64,000 bases of DNA, taken from positions 1-64,000 of the forward strand of contig JARKQN010000059.1 in the NCBI GenBank assembly GCA_029974835.1. Reading direction: 5' to 3'. The stretch is from Bacteroidales bacterium. GTDB lineage: Bacteria > Bacteroidota > Bacteroidia > Bacteroidales > VadinHA17. The notes under the pieces are model-generated. The model was not told the origin of the DNA and did no database searches. It worked only from the letters and a program-made list of their open reading frames with translations. Shown here in pieces: positions 8,577-20,514 of the stretch (the first letter of the stretch is position 1; each line of letters starts with the position of its first letter). A program made the translations under genes and the position numbers.

Positions 8577-8608
8577 TTGTATTATTAAAATTAAATATCA
8601 TATATTTG
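8577..8608 (+). promoter_or_regulatory. Promoter of the padR operon
   Basis: TTG at 8577-8579 and TATATTTG at 8601-8608, with 21 bases between, match the Bacteroidota -33/-7 pattern. They lie in a very AT-rich stretch with several overlapping ATATTAAATATAATAT palindromic runs (8600-8640) that could also serve as an operator. Confidence 0.55.
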
Positions 8609-8640
8609 CAATATATAAGAATATTAAATATAATATAAAT

Positions 8641-8985
8641 ATGATATCAGGTGAACTATTAAAAGGATCGTTAAAGACCATTGTTCTGAAAATCCTTAAG
8701 GAAGAGGGTCCTCTGCACGGCTATGCCATAAGCCGCAGGGTGGAAGAGCTTACAGGCGGCAGGATAAGGCTTACCTACGGTGCTCTTTACCCGGTACTCC
8801 ATAAGCTGGAAAGCGAAAACATTCTGATAACCCGGCAGGAGAACTTCAACAACCGTACAAGGGTCTATTACAGCATTTCGCCCAAAGGTCACTCAGTGAT
8901 AGAGGAGAAAGTGCAGGAAATGAAGGAGTACATTGAATCACTGCAGAAAATCATTGAATTAAAACCCGGTTTAAATTATGCCTGA
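8641..8985 (+). CDS. PadR-family transcriptional regulator
   Basis: The 114-residue winged-helix protein has the PadR signature: LKTIVLKILKEEGPLHGYAI, then LTYGALYPVLHKLE for the recognition helix, and a wing with YYSISPKG. It ends with one dimerisation helix, as in the short subfamily. The gene overlaps the next one by 8 bases and is almost certainly co-transcribed with it. Members of this family usually repress their own operon until a ligand or signal is bound; here the controlled target would be the two membrane proteins that follow. Confidence 0.9.
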   Translation: MISGELLKGSLKTIVLKILKEEGPLHGYAISRRVEELTGGRIRLTYGALYPVLHKLESENILITRQENFNNRTRVYYSISPKGHSVIEEKVQEMKEYIESLQKIIELKPGLNYA

Positions 8986-10432
8986 TCTGACAATCGAAAA
9001 CATTGAGAGGATTGCAAATGATGTCAGGAGCCAGGAGATAATTTTTTCCCGCTTGCCTGATGAACTTATTGATCATATCTGTTGTGACGTTGAATATGAG
9101 ATGAATAACGGCCTTGATTTTTTTGAAGCATACCGGGTGGTAAAACAGAAAATGGGTTCATTAAAAAGACTGAAGGAGATACAGGAAGAAACATTGTATG
9201 CGGTTGACACTAAATACAGATATATGAAAAACACTATGAAGATTTCGGGGATTGCCGGCACGGTATTGCTGGGCATCGCGGCATTGCTCAAGATGCAGCA
9301 CTGGGCTTTTGCCGGGGTTATGTTAACACTAGGGGCACTGACCCTGGCATTTATCTTTCTGCCATCGTCACTCGGAGTACTCTGGAAGGAGACTCATAAC
9401 AGCAGGAGACTCTTTCTGTTTGTCTCGGCATTCACCGCCGGATTTTGTTATATCCTGGGTACCCTTTTTAAAGTCCAGCACTGGCCAGGTGCGGGGTTGA
9501 TCATCCTGATTGCGGCAATTACCGGATTGTTGTTTATTATTGCATTGCTTGTGAGCAAATTACAGGAACCTGAAAGTGCCTCAAAAAAACCTGTCTATAT
9601 CATCGGGGCTCTGGGGGCGGTTCTGTACATCACCGGGATGTTCTTCAAGATAATGCACTGGCCCCTTTCCGGTAATTTCCTTATTTCCGGCATGATAACT
9701 ATCAGTGTAATTGCCTTCCCTCTCTATACACTGACCACCTGGAAAGAAGAATCTCATGTTGATGCCAGGTTTATATTTATGGTAACAGCCATTTTAATGA
9801 TCATTCTCCCGTCGACGCTGATTACGCTCAACCTTCAGCAGTCGTACGTGAACGGTTACTTTCCTCACCTCGAACAGCAACGTGCTTTATACACCTATCT
9901 GAACACGAATAATGATGCATTTATGGCGAGGTATAAGGATTTGCCGGCCTACCCTGAAATGGCAAATCTAAAAGCCCGGACAGATGAACTGCTTGGTTTG
10001 ATAAGCAAGATTGAATCAGATATGATAAGCGAAGCTGATGAAATCTCTTCCCCGGTAACTGAAAGCGCCAATCCTGCCCGGTACGAAGCCGGGCTTGAAG
10101 AAATGTACGGGGAGATACAGGGGACAAAAATAACGAAACCTGTTGCGGCAGAGTATCTTCTGCCGGGTCGCGAAACCCGGAATTTGCTTGAAAGGTATGC
10201 CGGAGAGCATATAAAATATTTTGCCACACTGGTACCTGAAGAGGCTTTGCAGAAATATTCCCGGCTCGTCGATCCTGCGAATTACCTGCCTGGTCAGATC
10301 CCTGATGATAATTACATCTCACTTGCAGCCGGACTTCATTCACTTTTGCTCTATAAAAACGGTATCCTGTCTGCCGAAACGGTAATGCTGAAACTGATTG
10401 CAGGATCAAAAGAAACGGATAAATCCAAATAA
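8978..10432 (+). CDS. Membrane protein with PadR-partner (HAAS-like) N-terminus and three HWP repeats
   Basis: The 484-residue protein begins with a soluble helical domain (residues 1-75) containing LPDELIDHICCDVEYEMN, which resembles the HAAS-like domains encoded next to PadR genes. Three related two-helix membrane modules follow, each with the motif FKxxHWPxxG: HW at 108-109, 168-169 and 227-228, spaced about 60 residues. A further membrane helix lies at about 265-290. The last 190 residues are soluble and probably helical. The same motif occurs at the N-terminus of the gliding protein GldL. Overlap with padR and a 2-base gap to the next gene indicate an operon. The function is unknown; a membrane sensor of stress or proton-motive force is speculation. 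Confidence 0.7.
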   Translation: MPDLTIENIERIANDVRSQEIIFSRLPDELIDHICCDVEYEMNNGLDFFEAYRVVKQKMGSLKRLKEIQEETLYAVDTKYRYMKNTMKISGIAGTVLLGIAALLKMQHWAFAGVMLTLGALTLAFIFLPSSLGVLWKETHNSRRLFLFVSAFTAGFCYILGTLFKVQHWPGAGLIILIAAITGLLFIIALLVSKLQEPESASKKPVYIIGALGAVLYITGMFFKIMHWPLSGNFLISGMITISVIAFPLYTLTTWKEESHVDARFIFMVTAILMIILPSTLITLNLQQSYVNGYFPHLEQQRALYTYLNTNNDAFMARYKDLPAYPEMANLKARTDELLGLISKIESDMISEADEISSPVTESANPARYEAGLEEMYGEIQGTKITKPVAAEYLLPGRETRNLLERYAGEHIKYFATLVPEEALQKYSRLVDPANYLPGQIPDDNYISLAAGLHSLLLYKNGILSAETVMLKLIAGSKETDKSK

Positions 10433-10434
10433 TC

Positions 10435-11370
10435 ATGAAACAAAAAATTTACATACTGGGCATGATTACCGTACTGGTAATCTTTCTCGGCACGATTTTC
10501 AAGCTGATGCACTGGCCCGGAGCAGGATATCTGCTTATAACCGGTATTGCTTCGCTGGTCCTTTGCTTTCTGCCCCTTGCGTTGTTGAATCACTACAGGG
10601 CATATGGTGAAAAACAGAATTTGCCGCTTCATATAATTACCTGGCTCACAGCATTTGTGGTATTTACCTCAATGCTGTTCAAAGTGCAGCATTGGCCTTA
10701 TGCAGGTGTTATGATGACCATTGCCCTTCCTTTCCCATACCTGGTATTCCTGCCGGTTTTTCTTATTACAATCTCAGGGAATAAGAATTTCGATATCTAT
10801 AAGGTTGTTTTTGTCCTTTTTCTGCTGGCGGTCAGTTCTGTTCTGTCTGCCCTCCTCGCTTTAAATGTATCTGCAACCGTAATCCGCGATAGTCTTGATT
10901 TATCGGGGCATTATAACGGTGTCGAAAAAGTTCTGGATCAGTCGCCGGAAGGAAATAGCGGGGCCGGAATGGTGACGAAGATTGATGAAGTGGTTGAGGT
11001 TGCAGGTGAATATAAAAGCCTTATTCTTATGGCCGAAGGCAGCTCTGTTCAGGAATGGGATAAAAACCCCGGAAGCCTTCCAATACCCGGTTCACGTAAT
11101 GCCCTGGCAAAGGCTTTAGCCTCAACCGGGAATGCCAGGTTGGGAGAAAAGCTTGATAACGCCATGAGAGCATTGCTTGAAGAGGCAGAAAAAACTCCCG
11201 GATACAGTGAACTGGCAAAATCACTTCCTGCCATTCTCGGACTGCAGGTGCAGGATAAGAATAATCCTTCGCCGGTGTGGCACAATCTTAACGGTAATCT
11301 TTCATGGACGCTTATTTACCTTGATGGTGTGGAAACAAACCTGAAACTGATAAAAACAACCCTGCCGTAG
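10435..11370 (+). CDS. Membrane protein with two HWP repeats, companion of the preceding gene
   Basis: The 311-residue protein has two two-helix modules with FKLMHWPGAG (His26) and FKVQHWPYAG (His86), again about 60 residues apart. A fifth membrane helix lies at about residues 120-145, followed by a soluble domain of about 165 residues. It has the same overall plan as the previous protein without the HAAS-like domain, so the two are probably paralogous. The stop-to-start gap is 2 bases. I do not recognise a characterised homologue. Confidence 0.7.
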   Translation: MKQKIYILGMITVLVIFLGTIFKLMHWPGAGYLLITGIASLVLCFLPLALLNHYRAYGEKQNLPLHIITWLTAFVVFTSMLFKVQHWPYAGVMMTIALPFPYLVFLPVFLITISGNKNFDIYKVVFVLFLLAVSSVLSALLALNVSATVIRDSLDLSGHYNGVEKVLDQSPEGNSGAGMVTKIDEVVEVAGEYKSLILMAEGSSVQEWDKNPGSLPIPGSRNALAKALASTGNARLGEKLDNAMRALLEEAEKTPGYSELAKSLPAILGLQVQDKNNPSPVWHNLNGNLSWTLIYLDGVETNLKLIKTTLP

Positions 11371-11439
11371 AAAAAATGTCAGGTTCTTCAGTCAAGGACC
11401 GGCTTTGGCAGCTCACCGGCAAAAACTGCAGTTCACCTT

Positions 11440-11476
11440 AAAATAATTGCCCCATTTAAAATGGTTGATTATTTTT
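11440..11476 (+). terminator. Candidate terminator of the padR operon
   Basis: AAAATAAT (11440-11447) pairs with ATTATTTT (11468-11475), with an inner CCAT/ATGG stem and a T-run at the 3' side. The hairpin is imperfect and AT-rich. Confidence 0.4.
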
Positions 11477-14082: not shown

Positions 14083-15495
14083 ATGAAGAAATTCAGCATC
14101 AGAACTACCTGCAGGAGACTGCTTGCCGATACAATCACCCCGGTAAGCATATATCTTCGTTTAAGAGATGAATTTCCCAATTCCTTTCTTCTCGAAAGTT
14201 CGGATTACCATGGCAATGAGAACAGCTACTCCCTGATTTGCCTTAAACCGGTTGCCGGCTTTACCGCAGATAACGGAAATATTAAGGAAACCTATCCCGA
14301 TGGTACCACCCTGCAATCTGCAGTCACATCAGGGTACGATTTCCTTGAAAGATTCTCTTCATTTTTCAAATCATTCAGCATGACCGAATCGGACACAGAT
14401 ATTCCTGTCAACGGAATCTTCGGATATATGTCGTACGACGCCGTTCAGTACTTTGAAAAAATAAAACTTCTTGCACCCGAAAATACCGACTGCAGGATAC
14501 CACATGTCAGGTATGATTTTTTCAGGTACATAATCGCAGTAAATCACCATCAGAACATACTTTATATAATTGAAAACAGTATTGATGGCGACACGGAAAG
14601 CGAGGCTGAACATATTGAGGATCTCCTTCGTAACCAAAATTTTGCCACCTTCAGGTTCAGAACAACAGGCCCTGAGAAGAGCAGCGTCACCGACGGGCAA
14701 TATAAACAGATGGTGCAGAAAGGCAGGGAGCACTGTTTCAGGGGAGATGTTTTTCAGGTTGTTTTGTCGCGCCGGTATTCAATCGACTTTAAGGGAGATG
14801 AATTCAACGTTTACAGAACACTCCGGTCCATAAACCCGTCGCCATACCTGTTTTATTTTGATTACGGCAATTTTAAAATCTTTGGTTCATCACCCGAAGC
14901 CCACCTTAAAATAAACAGAGGTAAGGCATACATTAATCCAATAGCCGGTACCTACCGCCGTACAGGCAACGATGAAGCCGATAAAATGATTGCAGAACGG
15001 CTCGGATACGACCAGAAGGAGAATGCCGAACATATCATGCTGGTCGACCTTGCCCGTAACGACCTCAGCCGTAAGGCCGGAAATGTTAAGGTCGAAAACC
15101 TCAGGGAGGTTCAGTTCTATTCCCACGTAATACACCTTGTTTCTTCCGTTTCGGGCGAAATGACGGAAGGAACAGATATAACAGATATGCTTGCGGCAAC
15201 CTTCCCGGCCGGAACGCTTACAGGAGCCCCCAAACATATGGCTATGCAGCTTATTGACAGATATGAAAACCATAAAAGAGGATATTACGGCGGCGCCCTT
15301 GGATTCATAGACTTCAGAGGAGTATTGAACCATGCCATTATGATCAGAACATTCCTGAGTATCGGTAACACTCTCTTTTACCAGGCAGGCGCCGGAATAG
15401 TAGCCGGCTCCGACGAGGAAAAGGAACTTCAGGAAGTAAACAATAAACTCGGTGCACTTAAAAATGCAGTTAAAACGGCGGAGGAGATAAAATGA
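14083..15495 (+). CDS. trpE: Anthranilate synthase component I
   Basis: The 470-residue chorismate-using subunit makes anthranilate from chorismate with ammonia from TrpG. The chorismate-binding domain shows FQVVLSRRYSIDF, INPSPYLFYFDYG, GSSPEAHLKI, PIAGTYRRTG, LVDLARND and TFPAGTLTGAPK, all standard for the family. LLESSDYHGNENSYS at the N-terminus is the region that usually binds the feedback inhibitor Trp. It is the first gene of the trp operon behind the attenuator and overlaps trpG by 4 bases. PabB is excluded by the operon context. Confidence 0.96.
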   Translation: MKKFSIRTTCRRLLADTITPVSIYLRLRDEFPNSFLLESSDYHGNENSYSLICLKPVAGFTADNGNIKETYPDGTTLQSAVTSGYDFLERFSSFFKSFSMTESDTDIPVNGIFGYMSYDAVQYFEKIKLLAPENTDCRIPHVRYDFFRYIIAVNHHQNILYIIENSIDGDTESEAEHIEDLLRNQNFATFRFRTTGPEKSSVTDGQYKQMVQKGREHCFRGDVFQVVLSRRYSIDFKGDEFNVYRTLRSINPSPYLFYFDYGNFKIFGSSPEAHLKINRGKAYINPIAGTYRRTGNDEADKMIAERLGYDQKENAEHIMLVDLARNDLSRKAGNVKVENLREVQFYSHVIHLVSSVSGEMTEGTDITDMLAATFPAGTLTGAPKHMAMQLIDRYENHKRGYYGGALGFIDFRGVLNHAIMIRTFLSIGNTLFYQAGAGIVAGSDEEKELQEVNNKLGALKNAVKTAEEIK

Positions 15496-16067
15496 AAACT
15501 CTTGTTATTGATAATTACGATTCATTTACTTACAACCTTGTCCATTACATCGGTAAGCTGACGGGTATAAGACCTGATGTGTTCAGAAACGATGAAATCA
15601 CAGTCGAAGAGGCCGGCAGATATGATAAGATTCTTATATCTCCGGGCCCCGGGATTCCCTCTGAAGCAGGCATCTGCATTGATCTGATAAAAAGATGGGC
15701 TCCCGAAAAGAGTATACTGGGCATATGCCTGGGCCATCAGGCGGTTTGCGAGGCTTTCGGAGGCAAACTGCTGAATCTGAGTACCGTGTACCACGGGATC
15801 TCTTCTCCTGTTAAAATAAAGACTCCGGATGAACCTCTTTTTAAAAACATCCCTCCGATTTTCATGGGCGGAAGATACCACTCATGGGTGGTCTCGCGAA
15901 AACACCTGCCGGCCTGCTTCAGGATTACATGTGAAGATGATAACGGCATCATAATGGGCATCAGCCATGAAGAATATGATGTTAAGGGTCTTCAGTTTCA
16001 CCCCGAATCGGTTATGACCGAATTCGGCCCGGAGATAATCAGAAACTGGATAAGGACGTCGGATTGA
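15492..16067 (+). CDS. trpG: Anthranilate synthase component II (glutamine amidotransferase)
   Basis: The 191-residue class I amidotransferase supplies ammonia to TrpE. The nucleophile Cys79 lies in ILGICLGHQAVCEAFGG and the His-Glu pair in LQFHPESVMTEFG. The N-terminal DNYDSFTYNLVHY and the PGPG oxyanion motif are conserved. It overlaps trpE (ATGA), indicating translational coupling of the two subunits. Many organisms share this subunit with folate synthesis (PabA role). That is possible here, since no separate pabA is in the window. Confidence 0.95.
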   Translation: MKTLVIDNYDSFTYNLVHYIGKLTGIRPDVFRNDEITVEEAGRYDKILISPGPGIPSEAGICIDLIKRWAPEKSILGICLGHQAVCEAFGGKLLNLSTVYHGISSPVKIKTPDEPLFKNIPPIFMGGRYHSWVVSRKHLPACFRITCEDDNGIIMGISHEEYDVKGLQFHPESVMTEFGPEIIRNWIRTSD

Positions 16068-16085
16068 ATTATAAATGTTCTGAAA

Positions 16086-17078
16086 ATGAAAAAGATACTT
16101 AACTACCTGTTTGAGCATAAAACCCTCAGCCGGTCGGAGGCCGAGGAGGTTATGATTAACATTGCCGGAGGAAAATACTCCGAAACGGAAATAGCAGCAT
16201 TCATTACCGTCTATCTGATGCGAAGCATTACCGTTGAGGAGCTTTCAGGTTTCAGGAACGCATTGCTTAACCTTTGCAACAGGGTCAACCTTTCTGATTT
16301 CGACACCATTGACGTTTGCGGTACAGGCGGAGATAACAAGGAAACATTCAACATTTCAACCCTTACCGCCTTCGTCCTTGCAGGAGCCGGCGTAAAGGTC
16401 GCAAAACACGGTAATTACGGCGTGACATCGGCCTGCGGATCTTCCAATATTCTGGAACATTTCGGTTACAGATTCTCAACCGACCCCGGAAAGCTCAAAA
16501 GAGAACTGGGAGAATCGGGAATCTGTTTTCTCCACGCTCCGCTCTTCAATCCCGCTATGAAAACCGTTGCTCCCGTCAGAAAGGCGCTTAAAGTGAAAAC
16601 TTTCTTCAATATGCTGGGCCCTACCGTAAACCCTTCATCTCCAAAACGCCAGATGATAGGAGTTTACAGCCTTGAGATTGCCCGCCTTTATAATTATATG
16701 TACCAGGAATCGGACATAAATTATGCAATTGTACACAGCCTCGACGGTTACGATGAAGTATCCCTCACATCTTCCTTCAGGTATATTTTTAACGGAACTG
16801 AGCAGATACTTGATCCCGAAACGATAAGCTATCAGAAGGTTCTTCCGGCCGACCTTGCAGGAGGGAAGAGCGTAAAAGAATCCGCGGAAATATTCATCGG
16901 CATACTTGAAGGCAGGGGAACCACCGCACGCAACAGTACAGTGCTGGCAAACTCCCAGATCGCTCTGCGTTGCTGTTTCCCCGGGAAAAGCCTTGATGAA
17001 TGCAGGGAAATGGCCGAAGATTCCCTCTTTAACGGAAAGGCCCTCAAATCATTTAAAAGACTGATGGAGATTCAATGA
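16086..17078 (+). CDS. trpD: Anthranilate phosphoribosyltransferase
   Basis: The 330-residue enzyme transfers the phosphoribosyl group of PRPP to anthranilate. VCGTGGDNKETFNISTLTA is the glycine-rich PRPP-binding motif, and KHGNYGVTSACGSSN is the anthranilate/pyrophosphate region. GPTVNPSSPKRQMIGVYS is conserved. Length is typical for the stand-alone form. It is separated from trpG by 18 bases and overlaps trpC by 4 bases. Confidence 0.96.
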   Translation: MKKILNYLFEHKTLSRSEAEEVMINIAGGKYSETEIAAFITVYLMRSITVEELSGFRNALLNLCNRVNLSDFDTIDVCGTGGDNKETFNISTLTAFVLAGAGVKVAKHGNYGVTSACGSSNILEHFGYRFSTDPGKLKRELGESGICFLHAPLFNPAMKTVAPVRKALKVKTFFNMLGPTVNPSSPKRQMIGVYSLEIARLYNYMYQESDINYAIVHSLDGYDEVSLTSSFRYIFNGTEQILDPETISYQKVLPADLAGGKSVKESAEIFIGILEGRGTTARNSTVLANSQIALRCCFPGKSLDECREMAEDSLFNGKALKSFKRLMEIQ

Positions 17079-17875
17079 TGAAATTTCTCGAAAGAATAAA
17101 AGAGGTAAAAGAGAGGGAGGTAGCCTTACTTAAACAAAAGACACCGGGATGGAAAACAGACAGTCTGTTCACCGCCGGAAGAAAGACACTGTCACTTTCG
17201 GAATCATTAAGGAACCACCGCGAAGCGCCGGTTATTGCCGAATATAAAAGGAGGTCTCCTTCGAAGGGCATTTTAAATCTTAATTCTCCGGTATCGGAAG
17301 TGGCGGAGGGTTATGAATCGGCTGGTGCGGCAGGAATCTCAGTTCTCACTGAAAATGTTTTCTTCGGAGGCTCGGCGGGAGATCTTTCCGTTGCCCGCAA
17401 CCATACCCGGCTGCCAATACTCAGGAAGGATTTCATTATTGATGAGATCCAGATTTATGAGGCTTCCGGAGCCGGTGCAGACGCAGTTCTTCTTATTGCG
17501 GCACTGCTCGGCAAAAAACGACTGAAGGAACTCTCTCTGGCTGCATGGACGGCCGGACTGGAAGTGGTTCTTGAAATTCATTCGGAAAAAGAACTTGAAT
17601 GTATAAATGACCACGTCAGCATAATAGGGGTTAACAATCGCGACCTCAATACACTCAAAGTTGACATAAATACATCTGTAAAACTCGCCGGCAGAATTCC
17701 GGCAGGTTTTATGAAGATTGCGGAAAGCGGCATTTCATCACCCGGACAGATCGCGATGCTTATGGAAGCGGGATACGACGGGTTCCTGGTCGGAGAGAGG
17801 TTTATGGCAAACCCCGATCCGGTGAAAGCATTCAGACTCTTTATCGGAGAAGTGAAACAAAACAGCGGTATTTAA
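17075..17875 (+). CDS. trpC: Indole-3-glycerol phosphate synthase
   Basis: The 266-residue TIM-barrel enzyme converts carboxyphenylamino-deoxyribulose phosphate to indole-3-glycerol phosphate. Key segments are AEYKRRSPSKG (catalytic Lys), SVLTENVFFGGS, LRKDFIIDEIQIYEA, GVNNRDLNTLKVD and AESGIS. It is not fused to TrpF, unlike the enterobacterial protein. Two adjacent ATG codons (17075 and 17078) are both possible starts; the first overlaps trpD. Confidence 0.96.
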   Translation: MMKFLERIKEVKEREVALLKQKTPGWKTDSLFTAGRKTLSLSESLRNHREAPVIAEYKRRSPSKGILNLNSPVSEVAEGYESAGAAGISVLTENVFFGGSAGDLSVARNHTRLPILRKDFIIDEIQIYEASGAGADAVLLIAALLGKKRLKELSLAAWTAGLEVVLEIHSEKELECINDHVSIIGVNNRDLNTLKVDINTSVKLAGRIPAGFMKIAESGISSPGQIAMLMEAGYDGFLVGERFMANPDPVKAFRLFIGEVKQNSGI

Positions 17876-17887
17876 AAACCTGAAAAT

Positions 17888-18520
17888 ATGCTTAAGGTAA
17901 AGGTATGCGGTATTACGGATGCGGATAATGCAAAAGCGATAGCTGAGACCGGAATTGACTTTGCAGGGTTTATTTTTTACCCCGGCTCAAAACGGTATGT
18001 CGGAGAAATGCCCGATAACAGGTTGTTTGAAAATATACCCGAAAGTGTGGTGAAGGTCGGAGTGTTCGTGAACGAAAACCCTTCAACGGTTATGGGAATC
18101 TCACGGTTTGCCGGAATAGAAATGGTGCAGCTGCACGGAAATGAAACAGTAAGTTACTGCGGCTCCCTGAGGTCTTGCGGTCTGAAAGTGATAAAGGCCT
18201 TCAGGATAGGCAGTAAAACAGACCTGCAATTAATCAATGCGTATTCTGATGTCTGCGATTATTTCCTTTTTGACAGCAGCACCGGAAGTTATGGAGGAAG
18301 CGGCACGAAATTCAACTGGCAGATAATCGAAGGGGCCGGTTTTTCAAAACCTTTCTTTTTAAGCGGCGGCATCGGCCCGGAAGATGCTCACCTGCTTAAA
18401 AAAATCACATGCAATATGTTTTTTGCAGCAGACATTAACAGCAGGTTCGAAGTTAAACCAGGAATAAAGGATACGGACAAAGTGAAAAAGTTTACAGATC
18501 AGATCAGAAACTTATGCTAA
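17888..18520 (+). CDS. trpF: Phosphoribosylanthranilate isomerase
   Basis: The 210-residue TIM-barrel isomerase carries out the Amadori step before TrpC. The KVCGIT motif with the catalytic Cys is at the N-terminus. GFIFYPGSKRYV, VGVFVN, VQLHGNE, DYFLFDS and LSGGIGPED are family-typical. It follows trpC by 12 bases and overlaps trpB by 7 bases. Confidence 0.95.
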   Translation: MLKVKVCGITDADNAKAIAETGIDFAGFIFYPGSKRYVGEMPDNRLFENIPESVVKVGVFVNENPSTVMGISRFAGIEMVQLHGNETVSYCGSLRSCGLKVIKAFRIGSKTDLQLINAYSDVCDYFLFDSSTGSYGGSGTKFNWQIIEGAGFSKPFFLSGGIGPEDAHLLKKITCNMFFAADINSRFEVKPGIKDTDKVKKFTDQIRNLC

Positions 18521-19710
18521 TGATGTACAAGATAGACAAAAAAGGATTTTACGGCGAATTCGGGGGAGCATTTATTCCTGAGATGCTTTATCCGAATATC
18601 AGGGAACTGCAGAGTGAATACCTGCAGATTATCGGAAGTGATGATTTCAGGGAGGAATATTATTCCCTGCTCAGGAATTATGCAGGCAGGCCTTCGCCTC
18701 TCTATTATGCCGCAAGGTTGTCGGAACATTACAAAACCAGGATCTTCCTGAAACGCGAGGATCTGAATCATACCGGGGCACATAAAATAAACAACACCAT
18801 CGGTCAGATCCTTATTGCCAGGCGCATGGGAAAGACGAGAGTGGTGGCCGAAACCGGAGCCGGACAACATGGCGTTGCGGCCGCTACCGTCTGCGCCCTT
18901 GCAGGACTGAAGTGCGTGGTATACATGGGGAAACTTGACGTGGAGAGACAGGCCCCAAACGTTCAGAGAATGAGAATGCTTGGTGCAGAAGTAATACCGG
19001 TGATGAGCGGTAACATGACGCTTAAGGATGCCACCAATGAAGCAATACGCGACTGGATAAGCAACCCTGCCGACACTTATTACATGATCGGATCGGTGGT
19101 GGGGCCTCATCCTTACCCCGACCTGGTGACAAAACTGCAATCGGTCATAAGTGAGGAGATTAAGATTCAGCTGCAGGAACAGACAGGCAGAAAGAATCCC
19201 GACTCCATAATAGCATGTGTGGGAGGCGGCAGCAACGCGGCCGGCTCATTCTATCACTTTCTGGATGAGAAAGAAGTTAAACTGATCGCCGTAGAAGCTG
19301 CCGGAAAAGGAACAGAAACGGGCGAATCGGCTGCTACCATTGCCATAGGCTCACCGGGAATTATCCATGGCAGCCGGACAATACTGATGCAGAACGACGA
19401 CGGCCAGATAACAGAACCTTATTCGGTTTCGGCAGGTCTCGATTACCCGGGTATCGGACCTCTCTTCGCCTGGCTGAATGAAAAAGGCAGGGTGATTTTC
19501 GAGAATGCAACCGATAAGGAAGCACTCGATGCCGCATTTCTCCTTATGAGACTGGAGGGAATAATTCCGGCCCTTGAATCGGCTCATGCCCTGGCGGCAC
19601 TGGGGAAAATGACTTTCACGGAGAATGATATCGTGGTGGTTATCATTTCGGGAAGAGGCGATAAGGACATGGAAGCATTTGTAAGATACGCTGAACAGAA
19701 CAATTTATAA
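18514..19710 (+). CDS. trpB: Tryptophan synthase beta chain
   Basis: The 398-residue PLP enzyme joins indole and serine to give tryptophan. FGGAFIPEML, KREDLNHTGAHKINN (PLP Lys in HK), ETGAGQHGVA, GGGSNAAGSFYHF and SGRGDKD are the TrpB1 signature, so this is the alpha-dependent form rather than TrpB2. Three in-frame ATGs occur at 18514, 18520 and 18523. The third (MYKIDKKGFYGEFGG) is equally plausible as the start. Confidence 0.96.
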   Translation: MLMMYKIDKKGFYGEFGGAFIPEMLYPNIRELQSEYLQIIGSDDFREEYYSLLRNYAGRPSPLYYAARLSEHYKTRIFLKREDLNHTGAHKINNTIGQILIARRMGKTRVVAETGAGQHGVAAATVCALAGLKCVVYMGKLDVERQAPNVQRMRMLGAEVIPVMSGNMTLKDATNEAIRDWISNPADTYYMIGSVVGPHPYPDLVTKLQSVISEEIKIQLQEQTGRKNPDSIIACVGGGSNAAGSFYHFLDEKEVKLIAVEAAGKGTETGESAATIAIGSPGIIHGSRTILMQNDDGQITEPYSVSAGLDYPGIGPLFAWLNEKGRVIFENATDKEALDAAFLLMRLEGIIPALESAHALAALGKMTFTENDIVVVIISGRGDKDMEAFVRYAEQNNL

Positions 19711-19734
19711 GACGGAGTAATAATTTGCCATATC

Positions 19735-20514
19735 ATGAACAGGATAGACAAACTCTTTAATGCGAAAAATACAGGTATCCTTTCCGTTTATTTTACGGCA
19801 GGATATCCGTCCCTCGATTCAACAACGGAAATAATAACTAATCTCGCACGCGGGGGCGCGGACATGGTGGAAATCGGTGTCCCCTTTTCCGATCCGCTCG
19901 CCGACGGACCTGTCATCCAGAACAGCAGCTCCAGGGCCCTCAGAAACGGAATGAGCCTCAAACTGCTCTTCAGCCAGCTTGAAGGAATAAGGAAAAAAGT
20001 TGATATTCCCCTCCTGCTTATGGGGTATCTGAATCCAGTACTTAGATTCGGTGTGGAAAATTTCTGCAGGAGATGTGCCGAAACAGGTATTGACGGTGTT
20101 ATACTGCCCGACCTCCCGCCGGAAATATATGTTGAACAATACCGGACTCTTTTCAGGAAATACAACCTGTTCAACATATTGCTTATTTCTCCCCGCACTG
20201 ATTCCGAACGTGCACACTTTATCGACAGCATTACGGACGGTTTTATTTATGTGGTTTCATCTTCTTCCGTAACGGGAGTTAAACCGGGCTTTACCGGAGA
20301 GCAGGAATCCTATTTTAAAAGAACAGTCAGTCTGAATCTTTCACATCCGCTGTTAATTGGCTTCGGAATCTCATCGCCCGAGACTTTCAGTGAAGCCTGC
20401 CGGTACGGAAGCGGAGCCATTACGGGAAGCGCCTTCATCAGAATGCTTGAAAAGGAAGGCTGCAACGGGAGCAGCATCATTCGGTTTGTTAAGGATTTTA
20501 AAAGAAAATTATAA
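19735..20514 (+). CDS. trpA: Tryptophan synthase alpha chain
   Basis: The 259-residue TIM-barrel subunit cleaves indole-3-glycerol phosphate and channels indole to TrpB. The catalytic Glu is in DMVEIGVPFSDPLADGPVIQ, and the second catalytic Asp is in GVILPDLPPE. FIYVVSSSSVTG and GFGISSPE bind the phosphate. It lies 24 bases after trpB and is the last biosynthetic trp gene. The next gene, cysE, starts 24 bases later without a visible terminator, so the transcript probably continues. Confidence 0.96.
   Translation: MNRIDKLFNAKNTGILSVYFTAGYPSLDSTTEIITNLARGGADMVEIGVPFSDPLADGPVIQNSSSRALRNGMSLKLLFSQLEGIRKKVDIPLLLMGYLNPVLRFGVENFCRRCAETGIDGVILPDLPPEIYVEQYRTLFRKYNLFNILLISPRTDSERAHFIDSITDGFIYVVSSSSVTGVKPGFTGEQESYFKRTVSLNLSHPLLIGFGISSPETFSEACRYGSGAITGSAFIRMLEKEGCNGSSIIRFVKDFKRKL

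Follow-up and report, generated by a model that had tools for sequence, protein, structure and literature searches.

A PadR-linked operon of fused GldL-GldM-type proteins lacking the motor's proton carrier, a candidate envelope-sensing system of Bacteroidota

Introduction

In the motor of the type IX secretion system (T9SS), GldL/PorL forms the ring and GldM/PorM the axle; ten GldL helices wrap two GldM helices, and a glutamate in the second transmembrane helix (TM2) of GldL (E49 in F. johnsoniae) is reported to be strictly conserved and required (PMC8986121). Ravi et al. 2024 (PMC11237479) present PadR regulators that work with HAAS domains on FtsX/MacB permeases as an alternative to two-component systems, and the release of PadR from a sensor-fused HAAS domain is described in PMC12419801. 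In Listeria, the PadR protein LstR mainly regulates its own operon, which holds a RodA/FtsW homologue without the machine's function (PMC6624303). In this study, we analyzed padR-A-B, an operon that combines features of these systems and lies in a stretch of 64,000 nucleotides (positions 1 to 64,000 of contig JARKQN010000059.1, assembly GCA_029974835.1, from a Bacteroidales bacterium), hereafter the window.

The locus resembles each of these systems in part. Like GldL/PorL, the A and B proteins contain GldL_N-like hairpins in which the lysine and histidine of FKxxHW are nearly always kept, but they have two or three hairpins per chain, lack both the TM2 glutamate and the GldL cytoplasmic region, and are encoded outside the gld operon of their own genome. 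With GldM/PorM they share a transmembrane helix followed by a D1-type helical domain, although this part sits behind GldL hairpins, mostly lacks the GldM arginine motif, and stops after D1. The HAAS/PadR dyad (PMC11237479) is matched by a stand-alone padR gene beside a membrane protein whose N-terminal helical domain is related to that of PadR-linked MacB/FtsX permeases; unlike in that dyad, the receptor here is GldL/GldM-like and the GxP motif is mostly absent. The five hairpins and two GldM helices counted in the sequences of A and B together could correspond to the parts of a 5:2 ion-driven motor, yet their transmembrane helices have no conserved acidic carrier. The Listeria operon likewise pairs PadR with an envelope-machine homologue that lacks the machine's function, with the difference that the machine is RodA/FtsW in a Gram-positive organism, while here it is a proton motor in Bacteroidota.

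We found no description of a fused GldL-GldM/PadR system in the literature searched, which mostly excludes subscription papers. As whole words, GldL and PadR shared no paper in this literature, and GldM and PadR met only in an unrelated radiomics paper. GldL with HAAS returned, among others, two papers on T9SS or gliding in which "Haas" appears once each and may be an author's name, while "GldL-like", "GldM-like", and GldL paralog or homolog returned only a plant paper and PMC8986121. Among the matches listed for PadR with gliding, Bacteroidetes or type IX terms, PadR itself occurred only in a Salmonella paper. The main text of PMC11237479 mentions neither GldL, GldM, gliding nor type IX.

Fused GldL- and GldM-type architecture of A and B

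Sequence comparisons and structure models agree that A and B very probably represent a fused GldL/GldM architecture that has lost its proton carrier, and the operon that encodes them is probably a sensing system. A first-pass annotation, made from the sequence alone, had described a PadR regulator coupled to two membrane proteins, the second beginning two bases after the first. This arrangement holds, in that the open reading frames (ORFs) of padR and A overlap by 8 bp and a gap of 2 bases separates A from B, but the extent given to the system, 8577-11476, includes flanking DNA. The features of the locus are as follows.

8601-8608, plus strand: -7-box-like TATATTTG, which fits TAnnTTTG
8611-8631, no strand: candidate PadR operator ATATATAAG-AAT-ATTAAATAT, with two mismatches to ATATATAAG-N3-CTTATATAT
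8641-8985, plus strand: padR, 114 aa; Pfam PF03551 (PadR), E 9e-18
8978-10432, plus strand: gene A, 484 aa; HAAS-like domain, three GldL-type hairpins, GldM-type transmembrane helix and D1
8978-9229, plus strand: HAAS-like helical domain, A residues 1-84, with model helices at 6-17, 26-43, 48-58 and 63-76; presumably on the cytoplasmic side
9236-9394, plus strand: A hairpin 1 (LKMQHWAFAG), a GldL_N stretch
9404-9562, plus strand: A hairpin 2 (FKVQHWPGAG), a GldL_N stretch that scores 23.2 bits alone, just below the cut-off
9587-9742, plus strand: A hairpin 3 (FKIMHWPLSG), a GldL_N stretch
9761-9832, plus strand: A transmembrane helix 7, GldM-type, hydrophobic core 263-284; collinear with the GldM transmembrane helix in hhalign
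9842-10429, plus strand: GldM/PorM D1-type domain, A residues 289-484; structure match to PorM 7cmg_B; presumably on the periplasmic side
10435-11370, plus strand: gene B, 311 aa; two GldL-type hairpins, GldM-type transmembrane helix and D1
10441-10605, plus strand: B hairpin 1 (FKLMHWPGAG), a GldL_N stretch
10612-10776, plus strand: B hairpin 2 (FKVQHWPYAG), a GldL_N stretch
10795-10869, plus strand: B transmembrane helix 5, GldM-type (LLALNVS), hydrophobic core 122-144; from hhalign
10870-11367, plus strand: GldM/PorM D1-type domain, B residues 146-311; structure match to 7sau_A and 7sax_B; presumably on the periplasmic side

We compared the window with the best 80 of at least 439 relatives confirmed in a scan of one genome per species. 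Two main forms occur among these 80 loci, namely padR-A-B with 3+2 hairpins (33 loci) and padR with one gene, which encodes two hairpins and a GldM end (38 loci). Pfam GldL_N (PF22827, cut-off 24 bits) matched three stretches in the window's A (E 8.6e-18) and two in its B (E 5.1e-12), so the five GldL-type repeat units that had been proposed for these proteins are not a chance resemblance; the same model matched all 36 A, 32 B and 34 single-gene proteins scanned. Of the three FKxxHWPxxG modules proposed for A, hairpins 2 and 3 carry the motif and hairpin 1 departs from it (LKMQHWAFAG). Matches to Pfam and NCBIfam were at the domain level only, in keeping with the view of the proteins as uncharacterised: the whole-protein GldL equivalog TIGR03513 (NCBIfam) gave 47.3 bits for A and 29.6 bits for B, both below its cut-off of 68.3, and phmmer against PDB sequences gave only weak GldL matches (best E 0.05 for A and 0.019 for B).

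At the position aligned with the GldL glutamate, none of 240 hairpins (108 from A, 64 from B and 68 from single-gene proteins) has an acidic residue, and seven acidic residues lie elsewhere in the TM2 zone of the same hairpins. Canonical GldL proteins of the same order have glutamate at the aligned position in 29 of 29 cases (30 loci, one of which gave no GldL). The fusion hairpins kept the lysine of FKxxHWP in 231/240 cases and the histidine in 234/240; in the canonical control, the lysine and histidine counts are fixed by the search pattern and so carry no weight. Hydropathy over the alignments gave seven hydrophobic cores in A and five each in B and the single-gene form, with no core column in any of these alignments reaching 30% acidic residues and with lysine as the sole conserved charge inside the cores. 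The alignments used for residue counts leave out L116, L118, L123 and L134 for the A proteins (alignment A4), the B-bearing loci L106, L114 and L134 together with L123 for the B proteins (A5), and L142, L148, L153, L161, L173 and L178 for the single-gene proteins (A6). The locus had been suggested to be a membrane sensing or energy-coupled system; sensing is the likelier half of that suggestion, and energy coupling is not supported by these counts.

Behind the hairpins, A and B each carry one further transmembrane helix and about 170-195 residues, a GldM-like second half that the first-pass annotation, correct on the hairpins, had missed in both proteins. In hhalign, the ends of the window's clade aligned with the N-termini of 29 GldM proteins of the same order at Prob 94.4 (A, 190 columns) and 97.3 (B, 170 columns), while column-shuffled and reversed GldM controls, run with the same ends, gave at most 0.4; with wider sets of named loci, the A and B ends each reached 99.8. 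Pfam GldM_1st was found at E<=0.01 in 18/36 A, 12/32 B and 11/34 single-gene proteins, and the GldM of the window's own genome, used as query, matched A and B of genomes G069 and G084 as well as single-gene proteins of G071 and G064. Template-free AlphaFold models had mean pLDDT values of 83.2 (A) and 83.9 (B) and pTM values of 0.60 and 0.59. Residues 289-481 of the A model matched PorM 7cmg_B with Z 17.2 and an rmsd of 2.4 over 163 residues, the top nine rows of the ranking all being GldM/PorM and the tenth a catenin at Z 10.2. The B model matched 7sau_A (Z 14.3, rmsd 4.5 over 186 residues) and 7sax_B (Z 13.9, rmsd 3.3 over 152), again with GldM/PorM in all of the top nine rows and a tenth row at Z 8.2.

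Several observations weigh against this assignment. GldM_1st at E<=0.01 misses A and B of the window itself, and their D1 domains score E 0.055 (A) and 0.034 (B) with a GldM HMM (794-protein set). Foldseek alone gave no E-value below 0.001, the best being 0.042 (A) and 0.093 (B). Helical bundles can reach Z ~13 by a common arrangement, which B barely exceeds, and GldM structures may have been part of the AlphaFold training data. Finally, forms without D1 occur. D1 is absent from both A and B in L134, L070 and L034 (intergenic gaps of 12, 12 and 20 bases), where the hairpins and the last transmembrane helix are retained as judged by eye, and it is also absent from single-gene L148, L161 and L178, while L173 stops at an undetermined base. 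Judged by length, none of the 33 named loci with both ORFs has lost D1 from just one of the two proteins; a short A together with a short B occurs only in L134, the next shortest A proteins having 418-444 aa (L116, L119, L115) and the next shortest B 256 aa (L114).

The fusions differ from GldM in two further respects. The GldM motif (P/A)RQ(K/R)(M/L), which lies near the N-terminus in 29/29 canonical GldM proteins, was present in 1 of 102 fusions when sought anywhere in the protein, and PRQ within residues 101-300 was present in none of the 102. Pfam found no GldM_2nd, GldM_3rd or GldM_4th, the D2-D4 shaft, in the window or the relatives scanned; A and B end after D1.

The HAAS-like N-terminal domain

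A HAAS-like domain had been proposed for A, and an N-terminal helical domain of this kind is present, although the window's A matches no HAAS or DUF1700 model in Pfam (E up to 1). Over its first 78-90 residues, the single-gene family matches the N-terminal ends of two MacB_PCD/FtsX proteins of 898-903 aa, with E-values of 9.9e-18 and 4.7e-17 for the single-gene profile, and both of these permeases have a PadR-like gene just upstream (found by scan in L185 and by eye in L186). Against membership in the HAAS family stand the missing Pfam match, the weak score of the window's A with NCBIfam perm_prefix_1 (E 0.052), and the rarity of the GxP motif named for the third HAAS helix, which occurs in 2/36 A and 1/34 single-gene proteins. 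Among the A and single-gene relatives scanned, Pfam likewise gave no HAAS or DUF1700 match, and perm_prefix_1 matched 3/34 single-gene proteins. Because GxP is rare, we use the term HAAS-like, without a claim of formal HAAS membership for the domain.

A candidate PadR operator

TAnnTTTG is the consensus of the Bacteroidota -7 box, and TATATTTG fits it. Of the 77 padR upstream stretches compared, taken from 76 loci and the window, 55 contain this motif, where shuffled sequences lead one to expect 12%. At up to four mismatches, the palindrome ATAYATAAG-N3-CTTATRTAT is present in 68 of the 77 padR upstreams, compared with 3.6 expected from shuffles, but this count is descriptive because the pattern had been derived from the very loci that served for counting. 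In the window, the 21-bp palindrome at 8611-8631 comes directly after TATATTTG. It is the sole match in the window at up to three mismatches (chance mean 0.01) and the sole two-mismatch site in its genome, which is ~92% complete.

Weaker sites in the genome are no commoner than chance would give: at up to three mismatches there are three, two of them besides the window's, versus two for a backward control pattern. The genome-wide result is consistent with autoregulation and offers no hint that this motif serves a large regulon, but the scan covered the ATATAT form in a genome that is ~92% complete, and a wider regulon may exist. On this sequence evidence, PadR quite likely autoregulates its operon at the candidate operator 8611-8631.

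The palindrome, PadR and the HAAS-like domain appear to have been exchanged together. In L137, L138 and L140, all with 3+2 hairpins, the HAAS-like domain is nested in the single-gene forms (3/3, SH-aLRT 98), as is the PadR of L138 and L140, the two of these loci with padR on the contig (SH-aLRT 96), while the membrane part groups with the two-gene forms (SH-aLRT 97). The ATACAT...ATGTAT type of the palindrome is found among 31 two-gene loci only in L138 and L140; of the other loci that have a site, 36 in all with L141, a contig-end fragment of unclear form, 28 carry it. Together with these trees, which are quick ones built on few columns, the palindrome types point to one event, in a single lineage, in which PadR, palindrome type and HAAS-like domain were exchanged jointly and the membrane part was kept. 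Such a joint exchange would be expected if PadR touched both DNA and the HAAS-like domain but made no contact with the membrane part. In L140, two more genes lie between padR and A (L140:4150-5992). One encodes 291 aa and includes a HAAS-like domain, the other encodes 210 aa, and the pair looks like the insertion of a second HAAS module.

Distribution and forms among relatives

In the same genus, 29/58 genomes have a B match spanning at least 250 of its 311 residues. A phylum-wide search gave a match at E<=1e-12 in 7/395 genomes, that of the window included, which is a poor estimate of frequency because at most four candidates were scored per genome, many of the sampled genomes belong to other classes, and some matches are only the HAAS-like ends of permeases. 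Of the 80 best relatives, 79 have titles that name Bacteroidota. The exception, L155, comes from a metagenome-assembled genome (MAG) titled Azovibrio restrictus; its receptor is nearly identical to that of L156, from a Bacteroides MAG, and its contig is probably misbinned or misassigned.

A PadR-like ORF is present in 77/80 named loci, so the linkage of padR to these genes, which the first-pass annotation had left to be checked, is conserved across Bacteroidota. Two of the three loci without such an ORF start near a contig start (L116 and L137) and the third does not (L115). padR lies directly upstream of the receptor except in L140, with its two genes between, and in L157, where it is downstream of a single-gene receptor (L157:3995-5530).

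Besides the two main forms, four of the 80 loci have three hairpins without a detected B. In L133 and L136, tblastn beyond A gives no B, and these look like real three-hairpin proteins. In L109, the end of A matches the last 29 residues of B with 69% identity (G012:C349:10738-10824), as if B had been lost through a deletion between A and B. The fourth, L118, reaches a contig end, as do L123 and L141. L106 has B in pieces, most of which tblastn recovered, and the remaining partial or odd loci are L123 (one and two hairpins), L141 (none), L160 (two, plus a second ORF with two) and L172 (one).

We considered and set aside a single origin of the two-gene form. The tree of the HAAS-like domain and first hairpins does not give one: it has four changes between forms, at least three of them forced by starred branches, with L133 and L136 joining single-gene L139 and the long-branched L152 falling among two-gene rows. 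The membrane-part tree alone has three changes, at least one of them forced. By hairpin-profile scores, the first hairpins of A, B and the single-gene form group together and the second hairpin of A groups with that of the single-gene form, a signal too weak to give the order of events.

Proposed mechanism and alternatives

We favor, with some confidence, the reading that the padR-A-B operon senses the envelope and regulates itself in the manner of HAAS/PadR systems, its receptor being a fused GldL-GldM module that no longer transports protons. A and B probably report on the envelope rather than drive movement because the proton-carrying residue is lost and a gene switch lies adjacent. A and B would assemble via their transmembrane helices, and their two D1 domains would pair in the periplasm, as in the GldM dimer. 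Envelope changes, whether in the cell wall, the outer membrane or the membrane potential, would then alter the A/B assembly, and the altered assembly would signal to the HAAS-like domain on the cytoplasmic side, which would bind or free PadR, the predicted repressor of the operon at 8611-8631. That the HAAS-like domain relays the signal of the membrane module to PadR seems to us somewhat better than an even bet. Since no equally good operator site was found elsewhere in the genome, A and B probably act as the sensor of the circuit and are at the same time its product. If this reading is correct, a rotary proton motor stripped of its energy coupling would have been reused as a signal receptor and spread across Bacteroidota. 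By analogy with LstR, it may be a recurrent feature of PadR operons that degenerate copies of envelope machines are retained as sensors.

The ten GldL-type and two GldM-type helices of A plus B equal the helix count of the GldL5:GldM2 motor. More tentatively, and with the odds somewhat against it, one A and one B could thus form a covalently pre-set copy of GldL5:GldM2 without the proton carrier, a fixed-stoichiometry transmembrane sensor controlling PadR in which the 3+2 hairpins would make up the five-part ring and the 1+1 GldM helices the axle. The 3+2 hairpins of 33 loci, the GldM-type ends on both A and B, and the paired loss of D1 are in favor of this arrangement; the single-gene form (2+1), which as a dimer would give 4:2, and L133 and L136, which have A without B, are against it. 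If A and B did replace five ring and two axle subunits, they would provide a naturally heteromeric 5:2 complex whose ring positions could be changed individually, which is impossible with homomeric GldL.

Of the alternatives to a sensor, the one that fares best, though we regard it as unlikely, is that A and B are the operon's effector, which might be a complex that stabilises the membrane or a component of an export pathway, and that the HAAS-like domain and PadR only set its dose. The A/B operon's own site being the only two-mismatch operator found in the genome is compatible with this, as is a TolC-like gene after B in 9/80 loci, with MacA-like and ABC genes behind it in five. Only one clade shows the TolC link, however, and the window does not have it; the Pfam scan of the window's A and B also gave no enzymatic domain.

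Slightly less likely still is that A and B regulate or act as decoys of the true T9SS motor, mixing with canonical GldL or GldM and inhibiting or tuning it. The window's genome does have a separate canonical motor: on another contig, one canonical GldL (GldL_N 110 bits) adjoins a full-length GldM, flanked by GldK and GldN (named by eye), so this genome has A and B on top of the normal motor. The GldM C-terminal domain is present in 48/50 fusion genomes (50 of the 80 loci were queried), but 47 of the 49 same-class genomes listed also have it, and we therefore rejected T9SS co-occurrence as evidence because it is uninformative. The fusion genes lie outside the gld operon of their genome, and the MAG of L139 (G526), which may be incomplete, shows no canonical GldL or GldM.

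Finally, an energised motor in which some other residue takes over from the GldL glutamate is very improbable: the GldL5:GldM2 helix count and the retained lysine and histidine of FKxxHWP would suit it, but no transmembrane-core column is conserved as acidic, lysine is the only conserved charge there, and Pfam found no D2-D4 shaft domain. Compared with these three alternatives, an envelope sensor remains our preferred reading of A and B.

Gene neighborhood

The TolC-like gene lies after B on the same strand in L102, L103 (5489-10228), L105, L106 (8802-12305), L107, L109, L111, L113 and L116, and in four of the five loci with MacA-like and ABC genes behind it a permease gene is found too; these names were given by eye, and contig ends may cut off further cases. 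Eight of the nine loci belong to the window's ten-row clade, and L116 is absent from the tree. No TolC-like set lies downstream of B in the window. In L102, L103, L106, L107 and L115, TetR-like and TolC-like genes are located upstream on the other strand. The genome of L122 (G510) gave six matches to the GldM C-terminal domain, which suggests several T9SS motor copies or orphan shafts. In the window, the next gene after B is methyltransferase-like (named by eye), and a run of tryptophan biosynthesis genes lies some distance beyond B, at 14083-20514. A TrpE-like gene (by eye) is also found in L054, directly behind the fusion operon, so the neighborhood is partly common within the genus.

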